Below, one piece after another: positions 3,138 to 39,555 of a stretch of DNA of 64,000 bases. This DNA comes from Salinisphaera orenii subsp. orenii MK-B5. GTDB lineage: Bacteria > Pseudomonadota > Gammaproteobacteria > Nevskiales > Salinisphaeraceae. A program made the translations under genes and the position numbers. The stretch is from assembly GCF_003788635.1 (NCBI RefSeq), contig NZ_AYKH01000012.1, positions 1 to 64,000 on the forward strand. Reading direction: 5' to 3'. Below the pieces are notes generated by a model. It saw only the letters and a list, made by a program, of their open reading frames with translations, was not told the origin of the DNA and did not search any database. Within the stretch, counting starts at the first letter, position 1, and every line of letters begins with the position of its first letter.

Positions 3138-4432
3138 TTCGCGCGATCCGCCAGCGCCACGAGACCGCGTGCGTTATCGATATAAAGCGCGGGCAGACCG
3201 TCTGCGCCGGCCAGCGGCTGTGGTTGAGCCGCCGCTTCCACCTGGGCCAGCTGCTCCAGCGTTTCGCCGTCCTCGAGCATCGACACCCGCTCGGGCGCGA
3301 CGGTCTGGCCGGGCATGACGTGCTGCAGGCCGTTGACAACGATGACGTCGCCCGGCTTCAGGCCCGAGCGCACCACGCGCAGGCCGCTGATGGACGGCCC
3401 CATTTCCACGCGCTGATACTCGACCGCGTTGTCGGCCGTCAACCGCAGTACGAAGCGCTTGTCCAGATCGGTGCCTATGGCGCGGTCGTCGATGAGCACG
3501 GTCTCGACCGCCGCGCCGCCGACCAGGCGCATCCGCGCGAACAGCCCGGGCGTGTACTGGCCGTCGCCGTTGGCGAACGCGGCCCGGGCCCGGATGGTGC
3601 CCGTATCGGGGTTCACCTGATTGTCGACGAAATCGAGATTGCCCCCGTGCGGGTAGCCGGTTTCGTCCACCAGCCCCATGAACACGCCGGTGATGTCTTC
3701 GTCGCCGCCGTGCTGGATGAGCTGCTCATAGCGAAGAAACGCCTGCTCGTCCACGTCGAAATAGGCATAGACCGGGTCCTGCGAGACGACGGTGGTCAGC
3801 ACCGCGCTGCCGTCAACCAGATTCCCGGCCGTGATGTTGGCGCGCGACACGCGCCCGTCGATAGGCGCCCGCACCTCGGTGAATTCCAGATTCAGCCGCG
3901 CGGCACGCAGCATCGCCTCGACCGAGCCCAGCTCGCCTTTCGCCGCCGCCTCGCTCGCCCTGAACTGATCGTATGCCTGGGTCGAGATCGCGTTGGCACG
4001 CTGCAATGCCCGGCCGCGTTGGAAATCGGCGCGGGCCAGCGCGAGCGACGATGCCGCACGCGCCTTTTCCGCGGAAAGCCGATCGACCTCGGCCTGATAC
4101 GGCCGCGGGTCGATCTGAAAGAGTAGATCGCCCTTGTGCACGATCGCGCCGTCGGCAAAGGCGACGCGATCGATATAGCCGTTCACACGGGCACGGACCT
4201 CGACGGACTCCACCGCCTGCAGGCGGCCGGTGAATTCCTGCCATTCGTGCAGCGATTTCACGATCACCGGCGCGACCGTCACAGCCGGGGGCGGGGTTGC
4301 CGCCTGTGCCTGTGCCTGTGCCTTTGCGGTCGTCGGGGAGGACACCGCATACGCGGCCACCGCGCCGACCAGTACGGCGATCACCGCCGCGATGCCGATC
4401 AGCCGGGACGACCGGCGCCTTGATTCACGCAT
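3134..4432 (-). CDS. RND efflux periplasmic adaptor (membrane fusion protein)
   Basis: 432-residue HlyD/AcrA-type periplasmic adaptor linking the RND permease to an outer-membrane channel. It has a basic N-terminus and a hydrophobic anchor (about residues 10-32), then an Ala/Gln-rich linker. The biotinyl-lipoyl-like half follows (VRARVNGYIDRVAF), then an Ala-rich coiled-coil hairpin (about 110-190), the second lipoyl half (VRAPIDGRVSRANI) and beta-barrel domains (DNQVNPDTGTIRARAAF). It is the first gene of the operon and overlaps the permease start by 4 bp. The promoter should lie in the operator-bearing gap at 4433-4649. MexE/OqxA-like assignment is by family resemblance, and no specific substrate can be read. 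Confidence 0.92.
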   Translation of the reverse strand: MRESRRRSSRLIGIAAVIAVLVGAVAAYAVSSPTTAKAQAQAQAATPPPAVTVAPVIVKSLHEWQEFTGRLQAVESVEVRARVNGYIDRVAFADGAIVHKGDLLFQIDPRPYQAEVDRLSAEKARAASSLALARADFQRGRALQRANAISTQAYDQFRASEAAAKGELGSVEAMLRAARLNLEFTEVRAPIDGRVSRANITAGNLVDGSAVLTTVVSQDPVYAYFDVDEQAFLRYEQLIQHGGDEDITGVFMGLVDETGYPHGGNLDFVDNQVNPDTGTIRARAAFANGDGQYTPGLFARMRLVGGAAVETVLIDDRAIGTDLDKRFVLRLTADNAVEYQRVEMGPSISGLRVVRSGLKPGDVIVVNGLQHVMPGQTVAPERVSMLEDGETLEQLAQVEAAAQPQPLAGADGLPALYIDNARGLVALADRAK

Positions 4433-4550
4433 TGAGAACTCCCTGGAGCGGCCACGAGCGCGCTCGAAACCGGTTGCGCCGGGTCGTCTCTTGTCGGGAG
4501 CGACTCGGCAGCTTGACAGCGTTCGGCAACAAGCCGATTCTTACGGAACT

Positions 4551-4600
4551 GTTACCGACCGGTAACGTCCTGAGGAGGATGTTAGTTACCGGTCAGTAAC
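4551..4600. promoter_or_regulatory. Two 16-bp dyads, probable TetR operators
   Basis: GTTACCGACCGGTAAC (4551-4566) and GTTACCGGTCAGTAAC (4585-4600) share GTTACYG/CRGTAAC arms and sit 34 bp apart centre to centre. They lie in the 217-bp gap between the divergent efflux operon and the tetR-type gene. The position and symmetry fit autoregulated TetR control of both directions. This is seen directly. The protein that binds them is inferred. Confidence 0.75.
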
Positions 4601-4649
4601 ATTTCAATAAAAATATTGTGCCTAAAGGCACCGAGAGTGATAAGCCGCT

Positions 4650-5264
4650 GTGAACCAAGAAGTTATTTCCGCGAAAAAAAAGCCGCGTGTACGCGACAGG
4701 ATCTTCGCCGCCGCCTGTGAGCTGTTCTACAGGCATGGCGTGCGCGCCGTCGGCGTGGACGCGATCGTGTCCGAGGCAGACACCAACAAGATGAGCTTCT
4801 ATCGCGCCTTCGCGTCCAAGGACGACCTGGTCGCCGCGTACGTGCGCCACGAGGTCGAAGAAGGCCTCGCGCACTGGGAGGCGACGCTGGAAAGCTATAA
4901 GGGCGACCCGCTGGCCCAGACGCGAGCCCTGTTCAAGGCGCATCGAGTCGAAACCTGCGCACAGGCGTCCCGAGGCTGTCCGCTGTCGAACGTCGCCGTG
5001 GAGCTATCCGAAACGCAGCACCCGGCCAAGGCGATCATCGAGGAATACAAGGCCGAGATGCGCCAGCGCTTTCGCCGCCTGGCCGGCGAAATGGGCGCGC
5101 CCAACGCGGACGCGCTGGGCGATACCCTGATGCTGCTCTGGGAAGGCGCCTATCTCTCGCCGTTGACGTTCTACGACCGCAGCGGCCCGGCCCAGAATGT
5201 CGTCAACGCCGCCGAAGCCGTGATCAAGGCATTCGTGCCCGAGCAGGCCCGGTCCGCGCACTGA
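4650..5264 (+). CDS. TetR/AcrR family transcriptional repressor
   Basis: 204-residue regulator with an N-terminal TetR helix-turn-helix at about residues 15-60 (RIFAAACELFYRHGVRAVGV, then SFYRAFASKDDLVAAYV). The C-terminal ligand domain contains the TetR_C-like stretch SRGCPLSNVAVEL seen in acrylate or aromatic-responsive members. The start is a GTG at 4650, and no strong Shine-Dalgarno is evident. It is divergent from the RND operon with two dyads between them, so it most likely represses the pump. The inducer is not predictable from sequence. Confidence 0.9.
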   Translation: MNQEVISAKKKPRVRDRIFAAACELFYRHGVRAVGVDAIVSEADTNKMSFYRAFASKDDLVAAYVRHEVEEGLAHWEATLESYKGDPLAQTRALFKAHRVETCAQASRGCPLSNVAVELSETQHPAKAIIEEYKAEMRQRFRRLAGEMGAPNADALGDTLMLLWEGAYLSPLTFYDRSGPAQNVVNAAEAVIKAFVPEQARSAH

Positions 5265-29906: not shown

Positions 29907-30200
29907 GGCTCACCTCATTCAAAATACTGTTTTTACAACCAAAACACAAACTCAGGTTATTTTCATCAAGAATCACGCTATTAAAGACCAGCTGGCTACA
30001 CGCCAAGTCTTATCTATCGAGCCTTTTAGCGATGTCCAGTAACCTATTCGAGTCAGCACTAACCGCTCATTATTGGCACCTATAGCCTAGATCCGGAGCG
30101 GCATCGAAAAAGCAGACTGCAAGGGCCGCACCTTCGCCGAGATACTGGCTGAAGCAACCAAGCCTGTTCATTATCATGATATTGAAGGGCGTCGCTAATT

Positions 30201-30602
30201 CTAATTTCCAGCGGCGCCTTCATTAATCCAACTCTCGAATTTGGCAATCTCTTTCTTGGTTAGAGGCCCACTACCCAGTGGCATACGTGCGCCGCTGCCG
30301 CCGACTTCCAGCTGGTTGCCTTTTAGCTTATGTATCAGGTAGCTCTCCGTGGAATCGCCGGGCTCGACCCTTGCTAAACCGGACTGGGAACTGGGCTGCG
30401 CCACCAAATTGGCCAACGCATTTCTCCGATCGAGTGCTAGGTTCCCTTGTTCAGCGCCACGAACGTGGCATACAACGCATCTTTCGTTAAGAATGGGCTG
30501 AATGTCTTTGCTAAAAATAACCGAATCATCAGCCCTCGGAGCCGAGGACAAAAACGCCAGCAGTACAGCGAAAAAGCGAATCGCGAGAAGCTTAGGCGTC
30601 AT
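30201..30602 (-). CDS. Small exported c-type cytochrome, partner of the KstD-like protein
   Basis: 133 residues with a Sec signal peptide (LLAIRFFAVLLAFLSSAPRA). One heme site CVVCH sits in KDIQPILNERCVVCHVRGAEQGNLALD, which resembles the Planctomycete-type cytochrome C domain, and a likely axial Met lies in ARMPLGSGPL. The ATG at 30602 was chosen because it begins the signal peptide. It overlaps the end of the flavoprotein gene by 11 bp. The two are probably coexpressed and exported, with this protein taking electrons from the flavin. Confidence 0.82.
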   Translation of the reverse strand: MTPKLLAIRFFAVLLAFLSSAPRADDSVIFSKDIQPILNERCVVCHVRGAEQGNLALDRRNALANLVAQPSSQSGLARVEPGDSTESYLIHKLKGNQLEVGGSGARMPLGSGPLTKKEIAKFESWINEGAAGN

Positions 30603-32382
30603 ATGACTGTGCTCCGGCGACCTGTTCCCCCGCGATATAGCCAAAAGTTAGTGCCGGACCAATAGTGCCGCCGCCGCCCCAGTAAGCTTGATGCGCCGGA
30701 CTGGCGACGCAATTCCCCGCCGCGTACAACCCCGGTATCGGTACGCCCTCGGTGTTGAGCACACGGGATCGACTATCAATTACTGCACCTCCCTTCGTGT
30801 CGAGAGTACCAGCGCCCAGTAGTACCGCGTAGTATGGCCCCTTCTCGGAAATCGGGTATAAGGTCTTGTTTGGATAAGGGTTGGTTGGCTTCTGGAGCCA
30901 TACGGTTTGCCAAGCGTTTTCATTTGGTGTCTCGCCCCGACCAAACCTCTCATCCTTACCAGACCTAGCAAATTGATTAAACTGTTCTATCTCTCCAACT
31001 AAATTGCGTTTAAATGACGCATCTAATTTAAGTGCCCCAGTGTGTTCTTCCAAAAGTTGGAGGTGGGTAGCAACCTTGGTCGCTAGCTCATCAAGAGTAG
31101 CTGCGCGAATGATATATTCTGGCAAGCTAGCGTCAGGCCCAGGTATAGGATCGTACCCGGCGTAAGCCTTGTGGCTGCGTCCATCCCATATCATGATTCC
31201 CAAAAGATTCGGATATTCCAGTCTAACCGGGTCCCAATAAAAATGAACCTGGGTTCGTTCGTTGTACGCGATTTTTTCATTGACGAAACGACGACCATAA
31301 CGGTTAACTTGCAACATACTGTCGCCTGGTGGAACCCATACGTTGTAGGGCACGCTGCGCCTGCGTACTGCGAGTTCCACTGGAATCTGGCACCACCACG
31401 CATTGTTCATGTTGCCAAACATTGCGCCTACACCTGCAGCAATCGGAACGAAATCACCCGTACTTCCCGGCATCGCGCAGCCTCCCCACACACGCCCGCG
31501 CAGGAAGCAGTCTGCCATCGCCTTGTTGTGGGTAAATCCGCCGGACGCAAAAACCACGCCTTTCCTAGCTTGGAACTTCACCAAGCCGGCGTCAGGGTCT
31601 TCGACAACGAGCCCCGCGACGCGTCCCCCATCGTTTTTAACCAACGACTTAACCTTGTGGTCCAACAGCACTTCAACGGGCTTGCCCTCAAAACCAGCGC
31701 GAAGTTTGGTCAAGAGGGCATTGCCGTCGCCGCCGGCGGCCGGCCAAAAGGCGCTTTCGGGATTGTCGCTCATGTCCGTGACCAACGAGCGACCGACTTC
31801 GACTTCATCCTCCGGCAAGTGGGCGTGGTAATCCGGCCACACCTGATCTGGCTTGTAGTGCCATGGGCTGATCTTGAGCGTGGTATTAGCCATCAACGCT
31901 TGAATTACCCGGCTACCGTTTAAATAAAACGTTTCGAGCTGTGCAAAAGCGTCGGGAGAGATACCCATGGTTTTATGATCCGGCCGATAAAGGTCAGGAT
32001 AAGCCAACCGGATCATGTAACGTAAAGCGCCCTCGCGATCATCGTTGACTCCTTTCTGGCGCAAGTAAGGATTATTTGGTATCCAAAATACGCCAGCGGA
32101 CTTTCGGGTCGTCCCTCCAGAAAACGGCATCTTCTCCAGGATGAGTACTGTACTGCCAGCTTGAGCGGCTGCAAGTGCAGCGGCGGTACCAGCGGCGCCA
32201 CTGCCCACGACGAGCACATCCGCTTTTCTCTCCCATTTCATCGACTTTTCTGCCCGAACGGCCGGTACGGCGGCGATTCCCGCTATGCCAGACAACAATC
32301 CAGCCCCTGTCGACACAAGTAGCTTACGACGTCGACGGTTAATTGAGTTGTTCTCTGGCCCTTTGTCTTCGTAGTCAACCAT
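30592..32382 (-). CDS. TAT-exported 3-ketosteroid-dehydrogenase-like flavoprotein
   Basis: 596 residues of the FAD-binding-2 (fumarate reductase/KstD) family. The N-terminus NRRRRKLLVSTGAGLLSGIA is a twin-arginine signal. Next come the dinucleotide fold VLVVGSGAAGTAAALAAAQAG, EKMPFSGGTTRKSAGVFW and the C-terminal FAD loop YWGGGGTIGPALTFGYIAG, as in KstD enzymes. The ATG at 32382 has GAGGAAG just upstream. A frame-continuous upstream start at 32499 would read through the 7-bp tandem repeat and is less likely. Classical KstD is cytoplasmic. This one is exported and paired with a cytochrome, so it may dehydrogenate a cyclic ketone-like or phenolic side-chain substrate in the periplasm. The substrate is unknown. 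Confidence 0.82.
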   Translation of the reverse strand: MVDYEDKGPENNSINRRRRKLLVSTGAGLLSGIAGIAAVPAVRAEKSMKWERKADVLVVGSGAAGTAAALAAAQAGSTVLILEKMPFSGGTTRKSAGVFWIPNNPYLRQKGVNDDREGALRYMIRLAYPDLYRPDHKTMGISPDAFAQLETFYLNGSRVIQALMANTTLKISPWHYKPDQVWPDYHAHLPEDEVEVGRSLVTDMSDNPESAFWPAAGGDGNALLTKLRAGFEGKPVEVLLDHKVKSLVKNDGGRVAGLVVEDPDAGLVKFQARKGVVFASGGFTHNKAMADCFLRGRVWGGCAMPGSTGDFVPIAAGVGAMFGNMNNAWWCQIPVELAVRRRSVPYNVWVPPGDSMLQVNRYGRRFVNEKIAYNERTQVHFYWDPVRLEYPNLLGIMIWDGRSHKAYAGYDPIPGPDASLPEYIIRAATLDELATKVATHLQLLEEHTGALKLDASFKRNLVGEIEQFNQFARSGKDERFGRGETPNENAWQTVWLQKPTNPYPNKTLYPISEKGPYYAVLLGAGTLDTKGGAVIDSRSRVLNTEGVPIPGLYAAGNCVASPAHQAYWGGGGTIGPALTFGYIAGEQVAGAQSYDA

Positions 32383-32393
32383 GCTTCTTCCTC

Positions 32394-32463
32394 GTTCCTG
32401 GTTCCTGGTTCCTGGTTCCTGGTTCCTGGTTCCTGGTTCCTGGTTCCTGGTTCCTGGTTCCTG
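32394..32463. repeat. Ten perfect tandem copies of GTTCCTG (7 bp)
   Basis: Seventy bases of uninterrupted heptanucleotide repeat, lying 12 bp upstream of the flavoprotein ATG and 14 bp downstream (transcript sense) of the SDR stop. On the transcript each unit reads CAGGAAC and so carries an AGGA core. A 7-bp unit is not a multiple of 3, so slippage changes both leader length and the frame entering from upstream. Confidence 0.97.
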
Positions 32464-32476
32464 TTCAGCGCTTCCG

Positions 32477-33295
32477 CTACTGAGCGGTATATCCCCCATC
32501 TACAACAAACTCGGAACCTGTCATCCAAGAAGCCGCATCGGAAGCCAAATACAGCGCCGCGCTCGCAACATCAGGGACGCTCCCAAATCGGCCGATGGGA
32601 TGGCCTGAAAGGAACATATGGCGTGCAGCCTCTGGATTCGGCGCAAGACCGACGTTCACAAGCTGCTCGGGCAAGGCGCTACCCATATCAGTCCAGACAA
32701 CGCCAGGATGAATCGAATTGACCCGGATTCCATTCTTGAGCAACCCACATTCCACCGCCAATGATTTTGTCATCAACGATACCGCGCCCTTTGATGCACA
32801 GTAGGCCGTGACCGCGGGCATGCCGACTTTGCCGGCGATCGACGACATGTTGATGATCGACCCACCGTGCCCCGAAGCGCCATCGGGCGACATTGCGCGG
32901 ATGGCATGTTTGCAGCCCAGGAAGACCCCGGTCACGTTGACCTCCATCAGACGTCGGAACGCGGAAACGGACTCCTCGCTAGCCAGCACCATATGTTCGA
33001 TTCCCGCGTTGTTAACTAGGATATCGACACGGCCAAAGGCCCTCACAGTCGCGGCTATCGCCGATTCCCATTCGGGCTCGACAGTTACGTCGTGATGCAC
33101 GAATTTAGCCGTCCCCCCCATGTCACAGATTTCCTTTGCAATTTCCTCTCCTTCCTTGGCGAGCACATCGGAAAGCATGACTTCGGCCCCGGCATCGGCG
33201 AACAACTTACCCATAGCTGCGCCAAGGCCTCGACCACCGCCTGTTACCAATACAACCTTATCTCTCAGGGAAAATAAGCTACCTGAATTGCCCAT
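32477..33295 (-). CDS. Short-chain dehydrogenase/reductase (classical SDR)
   Basis: 272 residues. It has the cofactor loop TGGGRGLGAAMG, NNAG (LVNNAGIEH), Ser in NMSSIAGKVG and YxxxK in TAYCASKGA, plus the C-terminal ASWMTGSEFVVDGGYTAQ. Asp in MLSDVL after beta-2 predicts NAD(H) preference. The ATG at 33295 with GAGGAGAAC was chosen over an upstream frame extension. In this block it would fit oxidation of a secondary benzylic alcohol to a ketone before the Baeyer-Villiger step. That role is inferred. Confidence 0.88.
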   Translation of the reverse strand: MGNSGSLFSLRDKVVLVTGGGRGLGAAMGKLFADAGAEVMLSDVLAKEGEEIAKEICDMGGTAKFVHHDVTVEPEWESAIAATVRAFGRVDILVNNAGIEHMVLASEESVSAFRRLMEVNVTGVFLGCKHAIRAMSPDGASGHGGSIINMSSIAGKVGMPAVTAYCASKGAVSLMTKSLAVECGLLKNGIRVNSIHPGVVWTDMGSALPEQLVNVGLAPNPEAARHMFLSGHPIGRFGSVPDVASAALYLASDAASWMTGSEFVVDGGYTAQ

Positions 33296-33488
33296 CGGGT
33301 TCTCCTCTAGAATTTTGATTTTTGCATTTCTAATTGCTTTAAAATCGGAATTTAAACTTCGCACGGCATCTCCCGCAGATAATGGCGGCATGAAATGAAG
33401 TCTATAGCGGCCGCCTACGCACAATTATCAGCGTGGTTTAAACAAATATAGCGCGTGCGACGGTACTTATCTCAGCCATTCCCAAACA

Positions 33489-34670
33489 CTAGAAATTATA
33501 GCCAAGCCCGACATTGATATAGTCAATGTGAGCGTCGAAGTTGATCCCTTGACTTTCCTCGGTTCCGCGAATACTTCCATAGTCCGCGTATGTATAACTT
33601 CCCGTTATCTCCCATCGAGGGGATGCCTTATAAGTTACACCGAGACTATAATGGTCGTATTGGTTCAGCGGAGCCAGAGTAGAGAGGGTAGTTTCTGACT
33701 TCGGGATTAGCTCGCTAGCGAACGAGGCGCCGGCACGCACAGTCCACCGGCGGTTTACGACATACGATGCACCAAAACGAAAAATATTTTGGTCTTTCCA
33801 CCCAAAACCAGGGCCATCATTTGCCCCCATTGGGCCGCCCTCCGAAAGTTTGTTGCCATATCCTTCCTCGCCGGCCCAGTTAATCCAAAGGAAATCCGCA
33901 GCGAGCGTAAACTTCGGTGAGTATTGGTAACTTAAGCCTACCCCGGCGCGCCGTGGCATGTTAAGCCGCCCATTCGGCAGCAAAGTGTCATAACGATCTA
34001 GTTCGCCATATTTAATCCTGCTAAAATAAGTAACCCCTAAACTCAGGTCTTCGAACAATTTCCCTTGATAGCCAACCGCAAAACCGTATCCATAACTAGT
34101 TTCTGAACCGGGGTTGGAAAAACCAACGCCCTCCAGACCGCCTATATCTAAACGCTGATAAGCTAACCGCGGGGAAAAGCCAATATATTGATTAGGAGAA
34201 AGTTGATAGGTGACCGTAGGGGCAGCGACTACTTGTTTGAGATCAGCCTTTAAATCTGTTGTCCCCAATAACGGCTCCTCGTAGTCAATGCCTAACCCGT
34301 GACCAAAAATGGTCAATCCCACAGTAATCTTCTCATTTAATACCTTATTGAACCCCGCGGTAGGCACGGGAACAAACGCAGTGGTCGAATAGCTATCCGA
34401 ACCAACGTCAGCATCCACTGGCGCGTATAGCACGGTTACATCAACGTCCATACGGTCGCCGACCAGCGCCATACCTGCCGGGTTATTTGCTGACGCCGTA
34501 GAATCCTGAGGCAAAGCTATAGATACCCCCCCCATACCCTGAGATTTCGCCCCATAGCCTGGCAACTCCACTCCATTACCCGCGCTGGCGGACAGAGCAT
34601 ATAACCATGTGAGCGAGCAGATGCAGGTGTTTTTCGTGGTCTTTTTTATAGTTTTTCTATTCGCAATCAT
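33489..34670 (-). CDS. FadL/TodX-family outer-membrane channel
   Basis: 393 residues with a signal peptide ending at ALSASA. Mature N-terminus GNGVELPGYGAKSQGMGGVS and SANNPAGMALVGDRMDV are the hatch-domain signatures of the OmpP1/FadL/TodX family, and amphipathic strands run to a terminal aromatic (LGYNF). Such channels admit hydrophobic compounds such as fatty acids, toluene or alkylphenols. Codon use is markedly AT-richer than elsewhere: a sampled line at 34201-34260 has 27 G+C of 60. Its presence supports a hydrophobic growth substrate for this block. Confidence 0.9.
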   Translation of the reverse strand: MIANRKTIKKTTKNTCICSLTWLYALSASAGNGVELPGYGAKSQGMGGVSIALPQDSTASANNPAGMALVGDRMDVDVTVLYAPVDADVGSDSYSTTAFVPVPTAGFNKVLNEKITVGLTIFGHGLGIDYEEPLLGTTDLKADLKQVVAAPTVTYQLSPNQYIGFSPRLAYQRLDIGGLEGVGFSNPGSETSYGYGFAVGYQGKLFEDLSLGVTYFSRIKYGELDRYDTLLPNGRLNMPRRAGVGLSYQYSPKFTLAADFLWINWAGEEGYGNKLSEGGPMGANDGPGFGWKDQNIFRFGASYVVNRRWTVRAGASFASELIPKSETTLSTLAPLNQYDHYSLGVTYKASPRWEITGSYTYADYGSIRGTEESQGINFDAHIDYINVGLGYNF

Positions 34671-34713
34671 AATTTTTCCGTATTTCTGTAAAATAGGGGA
34701 TTACGCTGTGTTA

Positions 34714-35658
34714 TTAACCACTATGCTTCGATGGCAAACCCCTAAGGTGATTACGGATAGCGTTCACGACGAATGCGCGGGCACGCGTGCTTTCAGGGAA
34801 AAGGCTAAACAAGCTAAAAAAGCCGTGCATCTGGCCGGCAAACCGCTGATGTACAACTTCGACACCTGCTTCTTTTAATTTGTGAGCGTACGCTTCGCCT
34901 TCGTCACGCAGCACATCATGTTCCGCAGTTATGAGAACGGCGGGAGGGAGTCCTGCAAACTCTTCCGCCAATAGAGGGGATGCTTCAGGTTTGAGACGAT
35001 CTTGTGGATTCGGGCAATAGTTATCCCAGAACCACGCCATGTCCTGTTTACCCAGAAATCCCTGGTTTTCAGCACTCAGATAACAAGGGCCCTCAAGATC
35101 CGGCTGGGTAACCGGATAGATTAGAATCTGCTGCGTGATCGCCAACGTCTTTTCACTTGTCGCCATCTGGGCGACCACAGCAGCGAGATTCCCCCCGGAA
35201 CTGTCACCGGCTATCAGCACGGGCATTTCCGAATTACGCGACGCATATTCCGTTGTCGCCCATTGGAGCGCCGCCCAAACATCATCAAGCGCGGCAGGAA
35301 ACGGATTTTCCGGTGCCTTACGGTAATCTACCAAGACGACGCTGCAATTGGTCTCCAACGCGATAAGGCGACCTAACGAGTCGTAGTCGTCTATATCCAT
35401 TACGGTCCAGCCGCCACCGTGACAGTAGATGATTACCCCATCAATCGCGTCACCCGGCGTGAGAACACGTAATTTCGCGGGAGTATTTGCCCCTAGCGGG
35501 ACATCTTTGACGCTGCGCATTTCCGGGCCAGGGCCCAAGAGCTTCCGCAGGCCGCCCATCACTTCACGCGCTTCCGTAACCGACATCTGGTGGAATGGCT
35601 TTATACCTTGATCTTTTAGCGACCCTAAGAACGCTTTTCCTGCAGAATCAATCGTCAT
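34714..35658 (-). CDS. Alpha/beta hydrolase, hormone-sensitive-lipase family esterase
   Basis: 314 residues. The oxyanion HGGG (YCHGGGWTVMD), nucleophile GDSSGGNLA, Asp in ITAEHDVLRDEG and His in QMHGFF form the HSL (family IV) esterase set. It is cytoplasmic, with no signal. Placed between the Baeyer-Villiger enzyme and the SDR, it is the natural candidate to hydrolyse the aryl (or alkyl) ester made by the monooxygenase. The specific ester is inferred. Confidence 0.9.
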   Translation of the reverse strand: MTIDSAGKAFLGSLKDQGIKPFHQMSVTEAREVMGGLRKLLGPGPEMRSVKDVPLGANTPAKLRVLTPGDAIDGVIIYCHGGGWTVMDIDDYDSLGRLIALETNCSVVLVDYRKAPENPFPAALDDVWAALQWATTEYASRNSEMPVLIAGDSSGGNLAAVVAQMATSEKTLAITQQILIYPVTQPDLEGPCYLSAENQGFLGKQDMAWFWDNYCPNPQDRLKPEASPLLAEEFAGLPPAVLITAEHDVLRDEGEAYAHKLKEAGVEVVHQRFAGQMHGFFSLFSLFPESTRARAFVVNAIRNHLRGLPSKHSG

Positions 35659-35716
35659 CTCCTCACCTTTTTTTGTTTTTTCAAGACTTTTATTATTTCA
35701 CTAACAAAGCGCTATC

Positions 35717-36031
35717 TCATCGCTCTTGAGACAAATCGACCTCTTTTACATCTAACGTCACCATCGTAGCCCCTTTGGGTGAATAATTTGGCACGTCCGC
35801 CAGTAACGCCTGCCCGACCTCCGAGTTCAAGGCATCGTTAAGCTCTGCGCCGTTACGCCACACGCCCTCGAAAAACAAGAAATATGGGCTTTCCTCGTCC
35901 TCGACTTGACCATATGAGGCAGATATCAATCCCGGAAACTTGTTAATTTCCGACAGATGCCTGTTCACGTAGTAATCCATGAATTCTTCAGGGTTGTCCG
36001 GATGGGGATAGAACACTATTAATTTATGCAT
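35717..36031 (-). CDS. EthD-family small protein
   Basis: 104 residues with a ferredoxin-like alpha/beta fold. HKLIVFYPHPDNPEEFMDYY and the following NRHLSEINKFPGL match the EthD family (first seen in an ethyl tert-butyl ether operon). Its biochemical role is not established, and relatives are dimeric and often act in small-molecule degradation or cyclisation. It lies between the BVMO and esterase genes, in the same direction. Confidence 0.82.
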   Translation of the reverse strand: MHKLIVFYPHPDNPEEFMDYYVNRHLSEINKFPGLISASYGQVEDEESPYFLFFEGVWRNGAELNDALNSEVGQALLADVPNYSPKGATMVTLDVKEVDLSQER

Positions 36032-36104
36032 GACACTTGTTCCTTTTTGTGTTGTATAAGATCTATGTCGATATATGCGCCCGATCTACGAGCAGAACGT
36101 CGGC

Positions 36105-37748
36105 TCACTCTAGTAAAAATCCCTTGTACCCGTTACGTGCGGAATTCTCGATAATTTCTTGATAACGCGGACCGCCGCCGAGGTACACCATAAATATTTG
36201 AGGTTTCCCCGGGATATTTGCGCCTGAATACCATGAGCTCGCCTTCGGAAGCAGAGTGGTGTCCGCGACTTCTTTCACGTGTGCAATCCATTCGTCTTCT
36301 TTCGCTTTATCGGGTTCTATCGACCCGACGTCATTCTTTTCCATATAGTCAATGCAGTCGGCGATCCAATCGCAGTGCATTTCTATTCCAAGGGGCATAT
36401 TGAACAGGACCGAAGGACTTTGAGGGCCCGTTATCGTGAACATATTGGGAAAACCGTGCGTAGCTAAGCCGTATAGAGTCCGAGGACCCGCGGCCCATTG
36501 ATCTTTCAGGCGCTGACCGTCTCGCCCCCGTATATCCATACGGAACAAAGCTCCGGTAAACGCGTCAAATCCGGTCGCGTAGATAAGCACGTCGAAATTA
36601 TAGGTTTCACGTGTTGTGCGCAGGCCGGTGGGCGTGATTTCTTGAATTGGTGTCTGCTTTACGTCAACTAACGTTACGTTGCTGCGGTTAAAAGCCTCGT
36701 AATAACCGGTTTCGCACGGCTGTCGTTTAGCACCGTAGTAGACGTCCTCCGGCGGACATAGCTTTTCCGCGATGCTAGGATCCTCGACGCGTTCGCGAAT
36801 CTTGGCACGCACAAATTCAGCGGCAGTTTCATTGGCTTTTTCATCAAACAATATGTCTTGGTAACTACCAAGCCACAGCGAGAAACCTCCTTCTTGCCAG
36901 CATGACTCATAATGTTCTGCACGTTGGGCTTGAGATTCTGCTAATGCAGAAGCGCGGGCGTTCGGAAACGGAACACCACCGAACGAATTCCACGCCTGGT
37001 TTCGGAGTGCACTGTAATTTTCCTTAATTTCTTCGTTATCTTTTTCGGTTAGTGGCTTGTTTTGCAGCGGGGCAGCCCAAGCAGGGGTTCGCTGAAACAC
37101 TGTCAGGTGATCCGCTTCTTTTGCGATTAGTGGAATCACCTGCACAGCGGTCGCACCCGTGCCTATAACTGCGACACGTTTATTCGTAAAATTCACACCC
37201 TCCTGCGGCCACCTTCCGGTCACATAACACTCCCCTTCAAACGCCTGCTGTCCAGGGATTTCCGGGACGTTTGCGTCAGATAGCGTACCAACGGCCGGAA
37301 TGAAGTATTTAGCTTCATATTGTTTGCCGTCATCTGTCTTTATATGCCACCTATTAGGCCCCTCAATAAAGTGCGCCGATAATACGCGGCAGTTGAAGGT
37401 TATATTTTTGGCCAGGTCGAATTTTTTCGCCACATAATTCAGGTATTCTAGGATTTCCGGCTGAGCTGCGTATTTTTCTGACCAGGACCACTCTTGCTGT
37501 AATTCTTCGGAAAAAGAATATGAGTAGTGGTAGCTTGGTATGTCGCAACGCGCCCCCGGATAGCAATTCCAATACCATGTGCCGCCGACGCTTGGCGCGG
37601 CCTCAATAAGACCAACTTTTAGATTAAGACGATCTCTTAGCAAGTGCAGCATATAGAGACCCGAAAATCCTGCGCCAACAACCAGGGCGTCCACATTGAT
37701 CCTGCTTTCTGAACTCGCGTTCTCAGTGTTCTCCGGATGTTCCGTCAT
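36105..37748 (-). CDS. Flavin monooxygenase, Baeyer-Villiger type, with altered fingerprint
   Basis: 547 residues. N-terminal FAD fold ALVVGAGFSGLYMLHLLRD, GGTWYWNCYPGARCDIPS and second Rossmann VAVIGTGATAVQVIP are those of class-I BVMOs of the cyclohexanone-monooxygenase type. The diagnostic FxGxxxHxxxW is FEGECYVTGRW, with Val in place of His (codon GTG, re-read on the minus strand). The ATYATGFD-type motif is present as IYATGFDAFTGAL. The start at 37748 has GAGGAG upstream. It is first in the minus-strand run BVMO-EthD-esterase-FadL-SDR-flavoprotein-cytochrome. It probably converts a ketone to an ester, but the His change leaves activity open. Confidence 0.85.
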   Translation of the reverse strand: MTEHPENTENASSESRINVDALVVGAGFSGLYMLHLLRDRLNLKVGLIEAAPSVGGTWYWNCYPGARCDIPSYHYSYSFSEELQQEWSWSEKYAAQPEILEYLNYVAKKFDLAKNITFNCRVLSAHFIEGPNRWHIKTDDGKQYEAKYFIPAVGTLSDANVPEIPGQQAFEGECYVTGRWPQEGVNFTNKRVAVIGTGATAVQVIPLIAKEADHLTVFQRTPAWAAPLQNKPLTEKDNEEIKENYSALRNQAWNSFGGVPFPNARASALAESQAQRAEHYESCWQEGGFSLWLGSYQDILFDEKANETAAEFVRAKIRERVEDPSIAEKLCPPEDVYYGAKRQPCETGYYEAFNRSNVTLVDVKQTPIQEITPTGLRTTRETYNFDVLIYATGFDAFTGALFRMDIRGRDGQRLKDQWAAGPRTLYGLATHGFPNMFTITGPQSPSVLFNMPLGIEMHCDWIADCIDYMEKNDVGSIEPDKAKEDEWIAHVKEVADTTLLPKASSWYSGANIPGKPQIFMVYLGGGPRYQEIIENSARNGYKGFLLE

Positions 37749-37998
37749 AGGTCTGATCTCCTCTTTAATCTTATATTTTCGTTCGGATATCGGGCAGTGG
37801 TCTTTAGCAGTGCTGCCCAGCGCGTGTATCCATAAAATGGGCGACAGCGAGCGCCAAAACACTTAAGCCGGCGAAATGTTCCGACCGCTTTTACGTCCGG
37901 GGCACTCGCGTTTCCGATAGCACCTGATACACCCCACCTAAAAGCTATTCCCGTGTACTTCTAAAATTACGATGCTTATCTCTAAAAAGGCGCTGGCT

Positions 37999-39555
37999 TT
38001 ATACCGAGCCACGTATGCCGGACTTACCAGGGGCAATGATCCCGTTTGGATCGAGCGCGTCCTTGATCGTTCGATGGATATTCCGCAACGGTTCGCCGAA
38101 ACTCTGAGCCGCTCGGTCCATAAATTCGATGTTCGTTCGATAAATACCATAACCGCGCTTCTCGAATTCACCGATAAGCTCAGCGAAACAGGCGTGCGCA
38201 CGCTCTTTTTCCTCTGGATCCTGTCGGTCGTAGAGCAGGTCGATGATGTGATGCATGTCACGCCATCCGACGATGTATTCTGCGACATAGTCGAATCCGT
38301 ACTTGCCGAGAATCTCTTGGGCCAAGTCGGTCTGGTCCCGGGTTTCCTTGCCCTTCGCCTGGGACACGGGCGCGAACCACATGGATCCGCCGCCGCCGCG
38401 CCAGTTGTAAAGGCCAAACTCTTGGAGGTTCATCTCGCCCTTCATGAGCGCGGCTCGATAGCCGAAGGAACCGGAGGCCTTTTCGGCCGCCTCTCCGTGA
38501 AAGATCTTCGCCTTACCGCTTTTGCTGAAGGCTTGCTGGATGATGTTCCAGTTCACCTCGATCTGTTCAGGCGTGCCGTATAGCGCGGCATAGATGTTCC
38601 ACTCGCCGATGCCCTCGTCGCTTTTGATCTTGTCGATGGCTTCGCGCGGGATCGTGCCGTCACCGTCATAGAAATCGCTGCGTGGCTTGTGCGATGCGAC
38701 ATCCCACAAGGTATGAGCGATCACGACTGCGTTAGGAATCACCTGACTGATACGCAGCGGACGCATGATCTCGACAATTTCCTCGATGTCCTCCGGGTCT
38801 GGGTATTGAATCAGGAAGGGACGATAGGCCGGCGGGGCGGGCATGAGCCAAAGCCCCATTTTGGTCACGATGCCGTAGTTGGATTGGGTGAATAGCCCGT
38901 CGATGTAAGGCCCGTAGCCCCACTTGAAGACTTGCCACGACGTAGAGTTCGGAATGCCACCCATGCCCGTACGAACGACTTCTCCATTCGGTAGCACGAC
39001 TTCCATGCCGCACTGGAACATGAAGTGCTCGCCGTAGGGCGTGTAACCGACGCCACGATCCAGCGTGTTACCTACCGGCCCGGCGATTGCCGACGGCGCA
39101 GGTGGATCCAGCCACAGCTTGTAACCCGCCTCCTGGATATAGTCATAAAGCTTTTGATAGGTCACGCCCGGCTCGATGAGCGCGGTGCAGACCTCCGGGT
39201 CGACGTCAATGATCTGGTCCATGTTCCGCAGGTCGAGCATCACCTGACCGGTCTCGCCGGGCGCTGCTGAGCCATAGCCCAGGTTCTTTCCCGTAGAGAT
39301 CGGCCATATCGGCACGCCGTACTCGTTGCAGATCTTCACGATCGCCTGAACCTGTTCCGTACGAGTCGCCAATAGCGCAGCGGAGGGGATATAGTCGCGG
39401 TCGTGGCCCGCCATCATCAACTTGGTGTACGGCGCGAGGTGGTCGCTGTCGATCAGCACGTTATCGCCGCCTACAACATCCTTGAACTTCTGCAAGGCTG
39501 AATCAAAATCGGCGGCGGATACACCGGGCGGTAGAGTGCGGTCGGATTGCTTCAT
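37999..39555 (-). CDS. pchF: 4-cresol dehydrogenase-type (PCMH/VAO family) flavoprotein subunit
   Basis: 518 residues of the vanillyl-alcohol oxidase/PCMH family. It has an N-terminal FAD-binding PP-loop region (GVPIWPISTGKNLGYG), the substrate-domain glycine run GLYNWRGGGGSMWFAP (which contains a Tyr that may be the flavin anchor) and a C-terminal DPNGIIAPGKSGI. In this family the enzyme hydroxylates the benzylic carbon of 4-alkylphenols through a quinone methide, giving electrons to the cytochrome subunit. Gene order pchC-pchX-pchF matches the Pseudomonas 4-cresol methylhydroxylase locus. It could equally be a 4-ethylphenol or eugenol hydroxylase. Confidence 0.88.
   Translation of the reverse strand: MKQSDRTLPPGVSAADFDSALQKFKDVVGGDNVLIDSDHLAPYTKLMMAGHDRDYIPSAALLATRTEQVQAIVKICNEYGVPIWPISTGKNLGYGSAAPGETGQVMLDLRNMDQIIDVDPEVCTALIEPGVTYQKLYDYIQEAGYKLWLDPPAPSAIAGPVGNTLDRGVGYTPYGEHFMFQCGMEVVLPNGEVVRTGMGGIPNSTSWQVFKWGYGPYIDGLFTQSNYGIVTKMGLWLMPAPPAYRPFLIQYPDPEDIEEIVEIMRPLRISQVIPNAVVIAHTLWDVASHKPRSDFYDGDGTIPREAIDKIKSDEGIGEWNIYAALYGTPEQIEVNWNIIQQAFSKSGKAKIFHGEAAEKASGSFGYRAALMKGEMNLQEFGLYNWRGGGGSMWFAPVSQAKGKETRDQTDLAQEILGKYGFDYVAEYIVGWRDMHHIIDLLYDRQDPEEKERAHACFAELIGEFEKRGYGIYRTNIEFMDRAAQSFGEPLRNIHRTIKDALDPNGIIAPGKSGIRGSV

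Follow-up and report, generated by a model that had tools for sequence, protein, structure and literature searches.

The array described here, ten perfect copies of a heptanucleotide directly upstream of the Shine-Dalgarno (SD) region of a flavoprotein gene in Salinisphaera orenii subsp. orenii MK-B5, is in our view probably a microsatellite that grew by slippage in the untranslated spacer of an acquired catabolic cluster; its copy number would probably vary, with a graded effect or none. On the forward strand, positions 32394-32463 of the window (the whole stretch of DNA that was analysed, 64,000 nucleotides) consist of (GTTCCTG)x10, 70 nt without a mismatch. The neighbouring catabolic genes are all encoded on the minus strand and the mRNA therefore reads (CAGGAAC)x10. 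A sequence-only reading had described the array as perfect, which the sequence bears out and with which the TRF call agrees (32388-32463, 10.9 copies, 98% matches, the best score of 8 arrays in the window). A pattern of two units with up to 2 mismatches gave 10 matches against 0.37 expected in shuffles, and first-order Markov copies of 454 kb of the genome (3 replicates) contained a single period-7 array that reached 3 units, and no array that reached 4. The array thus shows what defines heptanucleotide long simple sequence repeats, namely a tandem run of 7-nt units beyond statistical expectation. It is the sole array with at least 3 CAGGAAC units in the genome (3.67 Mb, 44 contigs), and a dispersed CAGGAAC family was accordingly rejected for this genome. 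Arrays of at least 3 such units were found in none of the 84 other genomes searched in the order; within the phylum sample the unit array occurred in 3 of 398 genomes, this one counted, and the reversed control pattern in 1 of 398. A Dcm-like CCWGG site is present at each unit junction, nine within the array; since the whole window is rich in CCWGG (212 sites in 1-64000 versus 125 expected from dinucleotide shuffles), nothing was built on them.

Features of the array, its leader and the surrounding catabolic cluster (positions in the window)
Feature	Position	Strand	Basis or remark
Low-GC stretch with catabolic cluster	30000..38000	.	GC 0.49-0.53, versus mostly 0.62-0.70 outside
Small cytochrome c-like protein	30201..30602	-	PSCyt1 match just below cut-off
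Flavoprotein, 596 aa, Tat-like signal, FAD_binding_2	30592..32382	-	Domain search; start placed by homologues
Native SD region, GAGGAAGAAGC	32383..32393	-	Best predicted anti-SD pairing of the leader, -5.9 kcal/mol
(CAGGAAC)x10, mRNA strand	32394..32463	-	Perfect heptanucleotide array, operon spacer / 5' leader
Spacer of 13 nt, SDR stop to array	32464..32476	-	Sequence
SDR dehydrogenase	32477..33295	-	Domain search; precedes the array on the mRNA
Upstream ATG, inside the SDR gene, other frame	32497..32499	-	Judged not to be a real start; no SD seen

Read along the mRNA, the stop codon of the SDR gene (TAG, 32479-32477) is followed by 13 nt, the 70-nt array, the SD region GAGGAAGAAGC and the flavoprotein ATG (32382), and the array had thus been correctly placed, by the sequence-only reading, between the SDR stop and the ribosome site of the flavoprotein gene. 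The array adjoins the true SD on its 5' side, the start codon lies 11 nt downstream of the array, and the SDR stop and the ATG are 24+7n nt apart for n units (94 nt at n = 10). The first seven bases of the SD region, GAGGAAG, precede AAGC-ATG and are identical to the array unit at 5 of 7 positions; the pattern search recovered CAGGAACGAGGAAG as two array units with 2 mismatches. GAGGAAG may be a diverged eleventh unit, and perhaps the seed of the array.

The start of the flavoprotein was placed by comparison with 8 homologues (45-58% identical). Seven of them have a candidate start that aligns with residues -5 to +8, counted from the ATG at 32382, several with a clear SD; the homologue L107 has candidate starts at residues 16-20 only, and others have multiple candidates (L012 at -3, 8, 22 and 37; L010 at -11 and 3; L105 at -15 and -5). 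An N-terminal extension of 39 residues that would match read-through of the array was present in none of the 8. The ATG at 32382 is preceded by a proper SD and followed by a Tat-like signal. Because most homologue starts lie near this ATG and none comes with a repeat extension, the comparison puts the array in the untranslated 5' leader of the flavoprotein gene. With a start that by homology lies downstream of the array, slippage has no bearing on the frame in which the flavoprotein is read, and the shift of frame with copy number that marks contingency loci is not found here. The earlier statement that slippage by one unit would change leader length and frame thus holds for the length, in steps of 7 nt, and fails for the flavoprotein frame; a frame-based phase switch of this gene was rejected on the homologue starts.

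The flavoprotein appears to be related to the 3-ketosteroid-delta-1-dehydrogenases. Its best NCBIfam matches are models of these enzymes, all scoring far below the cut-offs, and among solved structures it is closest to 8am8, 8am3 and 8am6 (E 6e-112), deposited as fumarate reductase/succinate dehydrogenase flavoprotein domain protein, which we take to be the Sterolibacterium dehydrogenase AcmB. The cytochrome c-like gene, which likely starts at the ATG at 30602, shares 11 nt with the end of the flavoprotein gene, and a homologue of this small gene follows the flavoprotein in 4 of the 8 homologous loci. The other neighbours encode: a FadL-type porin, an alpha/beta hydrolase, an EthD-like protein, a flavin monooxygenase, an FAD oxidase and, farther along the cluster, a XylR_N/V4R sigma-54 activator. 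Given the low GC content and the absence of close homologues of the flavoprotein and the SDR from 13 congeners, the region at 30-38 kb is probably a horizontally acquired island. The best flavoprotein homologue was 59% identical within the order, 46-47% in the class sample and about 42% on plasmids. Period-7 arrays of at least 2.5 units were found in none of the 8 homologous flavoprotein loci.

We then considered how the leader might behave at different copy numbers. Every unit carries AGGA on the mRNA, which gives the ladder of SD-like cores that had been noted from the letters, and the units are weaker than the real SD, with a predicted anti-SD pairing of -4.3 kcal/mol each versus -5.9 for the native site. 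The predicted cost of opening positions -18 to +12 is flat at the tested values of n = 6-14 (7.3-8.4 kcal/mol) and varies more at n = 0-4 (7.9 to 13.3 kcal/mol). Folding of the region was no better than that of shuffles (z -0.73 as RNA, -0.82 as DNA), and a search directed at sigma-70-like sites found none overlapping the array. A hairpin switch in RNA or DNA was rejected, there being no structure beyond shuffles and a flat opening cost at n = 6-14. With a flat opening cost, weak units, no structure and no overlapping sigma-70-like site, any effect of copy number near the present length should therefore be graded and modest, as far as these predictions go. The phase-variable switch that the sequence-only reading had suggested is thus not supported as a switch by frame, is not predicted as one by structure, and is possible only in the form of a graded leader effect.

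According to the explanation that we favour, the array would have been seeded in the ribosome-binding region of the flavoprotein gene, where CAGGAAC lies next to GAGGAAG, and would have grown from this seed by replication slippage; it would probably still gain and lose units. Each change would alter the distance between the SDR stop and the flavoprotein start in 7-nt steps (24+7n nt) and leave the real SD preceded by more or fewer weak AGGA sites; translation of the flavoprotein and of the cytochrome c gene that overlaps it would respond to this by degrees, if at all. We infer the variability from the perfect homogeneity of the array and from the other species that carry the CAGGAAC unit; by this analogy the array is probably hypervariable. 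Several considerations count against this explanation: an AGGA in sense orientation in every unit and an array directly against the SD would have the look of a translational device, the predicted opening cost does change at low copy number (n = 0-4), and the ten perfect units might have been kept by selection, not slippage.

A translational device could take the form of a rheostat driven by slippage, where the length of the weak-SD ladder sets the translation of the flavoprotein and cytochrome c, with no frame switching. The ladder would then stem from a duplicated part of the ribosome-binding site, the periplasmic flavoprotein of steroid-dehydrogenase type and the cytochrome c would be tuned relative to the rest of the catabolic operon, and cells would differ heritably in catabolic capacity; we judge this to be quite unlikely. 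A true contingency locus, in which slippage of the array generates ON and OFF subpopulations in flavoprotein/cytochrome c expression, is a tentative alternative and also unlikely. It would act through the context between SD and start, standby ribosome sites, or a lost translational coupling with the SDR. The coupling route fits the stop-to-start gap, which ten units widen from 24 nt to 94 nt, more than the usual distance for translational coupling. The occurrence of CAGGAAC inside a gene, in differing frames, in three Nocardiopsis species also speaks for such a locus, and the closest published geometry is that of the H. influenzae (AACAACC)1-7 tract, 13 bp before a TonB-receptor gene (excerpted text of PMC2651432). 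It is opposed by the reading frame, which the array leaves unchanged, by the flat predicted accessibility at n = 6-14, by units that are predicted to bind the anti-SD less strongly than the native SD, and by the gene itself, a catabolic enzyme not being the usual contingency function. If length matters, the array would count among the rare instances of catabolic bet-hedging and would provide a clean natural experiment on translation tuning by an SD-like ladder; if length is without effect, it would still be an example of an SD-adjacent sequence that seeds a microsatellite.

Translation of the array itself would make the flavoprotein start at the ATG at 32499 and, at n = 7, 10, 13 and so on, give it a repeat of QEPGTRN at the N-terminus, with ON/OFF control by frame. 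Positions 30592-32499 form an open frame of 635 aa that runs through the array, and in this respect the initial observation was right; it had claimed the frame for ten copies only, but as every added 7-nt unit displaces the frame by one nucleotide, the same frame recurs every three units (10 plus or minus 3k). The open frame is weak evidence, because the CAGGAAC unit is free of stops in every frame. No SD precedes 32499, a Tat signal about 55 residues into the protein would be odd, and most of the 8 homologues start near query residue 1, with none supporting an extension, so that we consider a translated array highly improbable. Very little likelihood is likewise left for the model put forward for the TAACTGA arrays of marine Beggiatoaceae, in which an RNA- or DNA-binding protein acts in trans on a dispersed regulatory repeat: the position in a leader and the sense orientation by a start codon resemble those arrays (PMC4679880, in its excerpted part), but there is one locus in this genome versus 169 sets in Beggiatoaceae, and CAGGAAC elsewhere has no preference for start codons. 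That the copy number is an artefact of assembly or sequencing is very unlikely as well; the count comes from a single assembly, and short-read assemblies can misjudge repeat counts, whereas the 70-nt array is shorter than usual short reads, has unique flanks and lies on a contig of at least 64 kb.

The wider distribution of such arrays was surveyed in 854 kb of the same genome (23.3%, window included). Among arrays of at least 4 units, those of period 7 occurred at three loci with unrelated units (the present array, C3:21026-21117 and C19:36655-36704), those of period 8 at one locus and those of periods 4, 5, 10 and 11 nowhere, and periods 6, 9 and 12 were represented by three, four (several of them adjacent) and two entries, respectively. 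Arrays of periods 9 and 6 are about as frequent as those of period 7, and a dominance of heptamers in this genome is therefore only suggested. Heptamer arrays arise generally in this genome, and because it holds others with unrelated units, the array at 32394-32463 need not be a dedicated element. The array on contig C3 (L132 1026-1117; unit ACGAGCC/GAGCCGT) starts 68 bases past a 316-aa ORF, the C-terminus of which looks by eye like that of a transposase; the one on contig C19 (L147 16655-16704) has the unit CGGCGAC. Dense period-6/12 repeats (GGTTCC, TCAGGC) run up to the end of contig C19 (L147 18217-18492), where the assembly probably broke in a repetitive region.

Beyond this genome, (CAGGAAC)x5 or longer was found as 66 stretches in genome contigs of other bacteria, with carriers in many phyla that include Vibrio, Pseudomonas, Nocardiopsis, Planctomycetota, Bacteroidales and Acidobacteria. 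The 485 kb around these arrays, a sample biased towards heptamer-bearing regions, contained 16 other arrays of at least 4 units with period 7, and 0, 0, 3, 2, 1, 1, 0 and 0 with periods 4, 5, 6, 8, 9, 10, 11 and 12. A general attraction of CAGGAAC to ribosome sites was rejected, as an array lay at most 60 nt before an SD and start in 3 of 55 evaluable cases in sense and in 4 of 60 in antisense orientation. The other leader-type arrays precede a sulfatase gene (L102), a desulfoferrodoxin gene (L039) and a gene without Pfam match (L068). The idea of a specially favoured unit was dropped on two counts: in viral contigs CAGGAAC was rarer than the reversed control (7 vs 15 stretches), and the phylum sample gave 3 vs 1 genomes. 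The array is one instance of a widespread class, the heptamer simple sequence repeats, and no dedicated element; no paper on the CAGGAAC unit was among the literature matches listed. Some carriers show a pattern of their own. Four loci of Planctomycetota GH22 (L079, L088, L091, L104) have CAGGAAC arrays with short CAGGAAC arrays in inverted orientation about 125 nt off and similar sequence between loci, and may represent a small dispersed element with heptamer arrays at its borders. The genome of Vibrio litoralis contains several CAGGAAC arrays (L047, L062, L080, L092, L097) with a similar 50-100 nt on one side, which suggests that a short element containing the array, mobile or dispersed, is present in several copies.

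The comparison with actinobacteria is the more consequential one, as CAGGAAC there resembles a coding-frame switch. Three Nocardiopsis species have a CAGGAAC array inside one orthologous gene, in frame in L075 (12.1 units; gene at about 3166-4962, in a genome with a single CAGGAAC array, like the present one) and out of frame in L069 and L089 (8.4 and 8.3 units). In a search of 150 genomes of the Nocardiopsis family, 59 had the gene family (E <= 1e-30). Of the 30 loci that were retrieved, 27 allowed both gene halves to be located; L182, L184 and L207 could not be paired, and L182 and L184 have arrays near the locus edge. At one common position of the protein, between PHGxGYNK and the conserved block that follows it, 12 of the 27 loci have a period-7 or period-8 array of at least 3 units, and the other 15 have a short in-frame linker instead. 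With L069 and L089 included, 14 loci bear an array, which keeps the frame in 10 and disrupts it in 4 (L179, L190, L069, L089); the arrays span 3.0-20.6 units and the unit sequence differs at nearly every locus. Since the frames of the arrays differ between species, the family, with its fixed array position and changing unit, looks like one that is phase-variable and switched by slippage. The family is uncharacterised, with no match in Pfam, NCBIfam, PADLOC or PDB sequences, and keeps arrays of 7 or 8 nt at one position while the unit differs between members; no paper on heptamer phase variation in Nocardiopsis or Streptomyces was among the matches listed. At three loci the CAGGAAC array lies directly before a related family gene and not inside it: L064 (4945-5062, 16.9 units, a Streptosporangiales MAG), L083 (288-367, 11.4 units, a Nocardiopsaceae MAG) and L073 (1-62, 8.9 units, Saccharopolyspora). 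Read by eye, L064 and L083 have a -10-like sequence immediately before the array.

Heptamer arrays in several bacteria offer points of comparison. The heptanucleotide array of E. coli K1 neuO lies in the coding region. Cultures of E. coli K1 contain mixed copy numbers of it and neuO is a capsule gene with phase-ON and phase-OFF states (excerpt of PMC13001214), whereas here mixed copy numbers are only suspected. The GGGNATC arrays of Xanthomonas and Nostoc are likewise heptamers, mostly non-coding and with many metabolic genes nearby, but they are genome-wide and form G-quadruplexes (PMC4692102, as excerpted), for which consecutive tracts of at least 3 G are needed; CAGGAAC has GG runs only, at one locus. 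The TAACTGA arrays of marine Beggiatoaceae overlap, as here, the expected ribosome site in sense orientation, with 169 sets of 2-6 copies in one genome and a unit that, going by the excerpted text, has no SD complement (PMC4679880); many arrays per genome, mostly directly before start codons, are not what we find with our single array of ten units. The TGAAAGA arrays of H. influenzae hmw1A/hmw2A share a position upstream of the gene and outside its frame, but their place is the promoter, some 100 bp upstream of the gene, and they affect expression (PMC2651432, excerpted part), and no sigma-70-like match overlaps the CAGGAAC array. More similar in layout is the (AACAACC)1-7 tract of H. influenzae, 13 bp upstream of its TonB-receptor gene and proposed to be phase variable, which is also a heptamer array in a leader just before a start codon; it differs, in the same excerpted source, by a copy number that varies between strains, a unit without AGGA and a receptor in place of a catabolic enzyme. 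Among the long simple sequence repeats of prokaryotes, with units of 5-11 nt, heptamers have been described as the most abundant class (Mrazek 2007, cited after the excerpt of PMC4679880). With these repeats our array shares the unit length, the perfect tandem beyond chance, the intergenic position and the presence of several unrelated heptamer arrays per genome, and it differs in nothing essential; heptamer repeats are a known kind of bacterial microsatellite, to which this array belongs, and what is special to it is that it adjoins a native SD.
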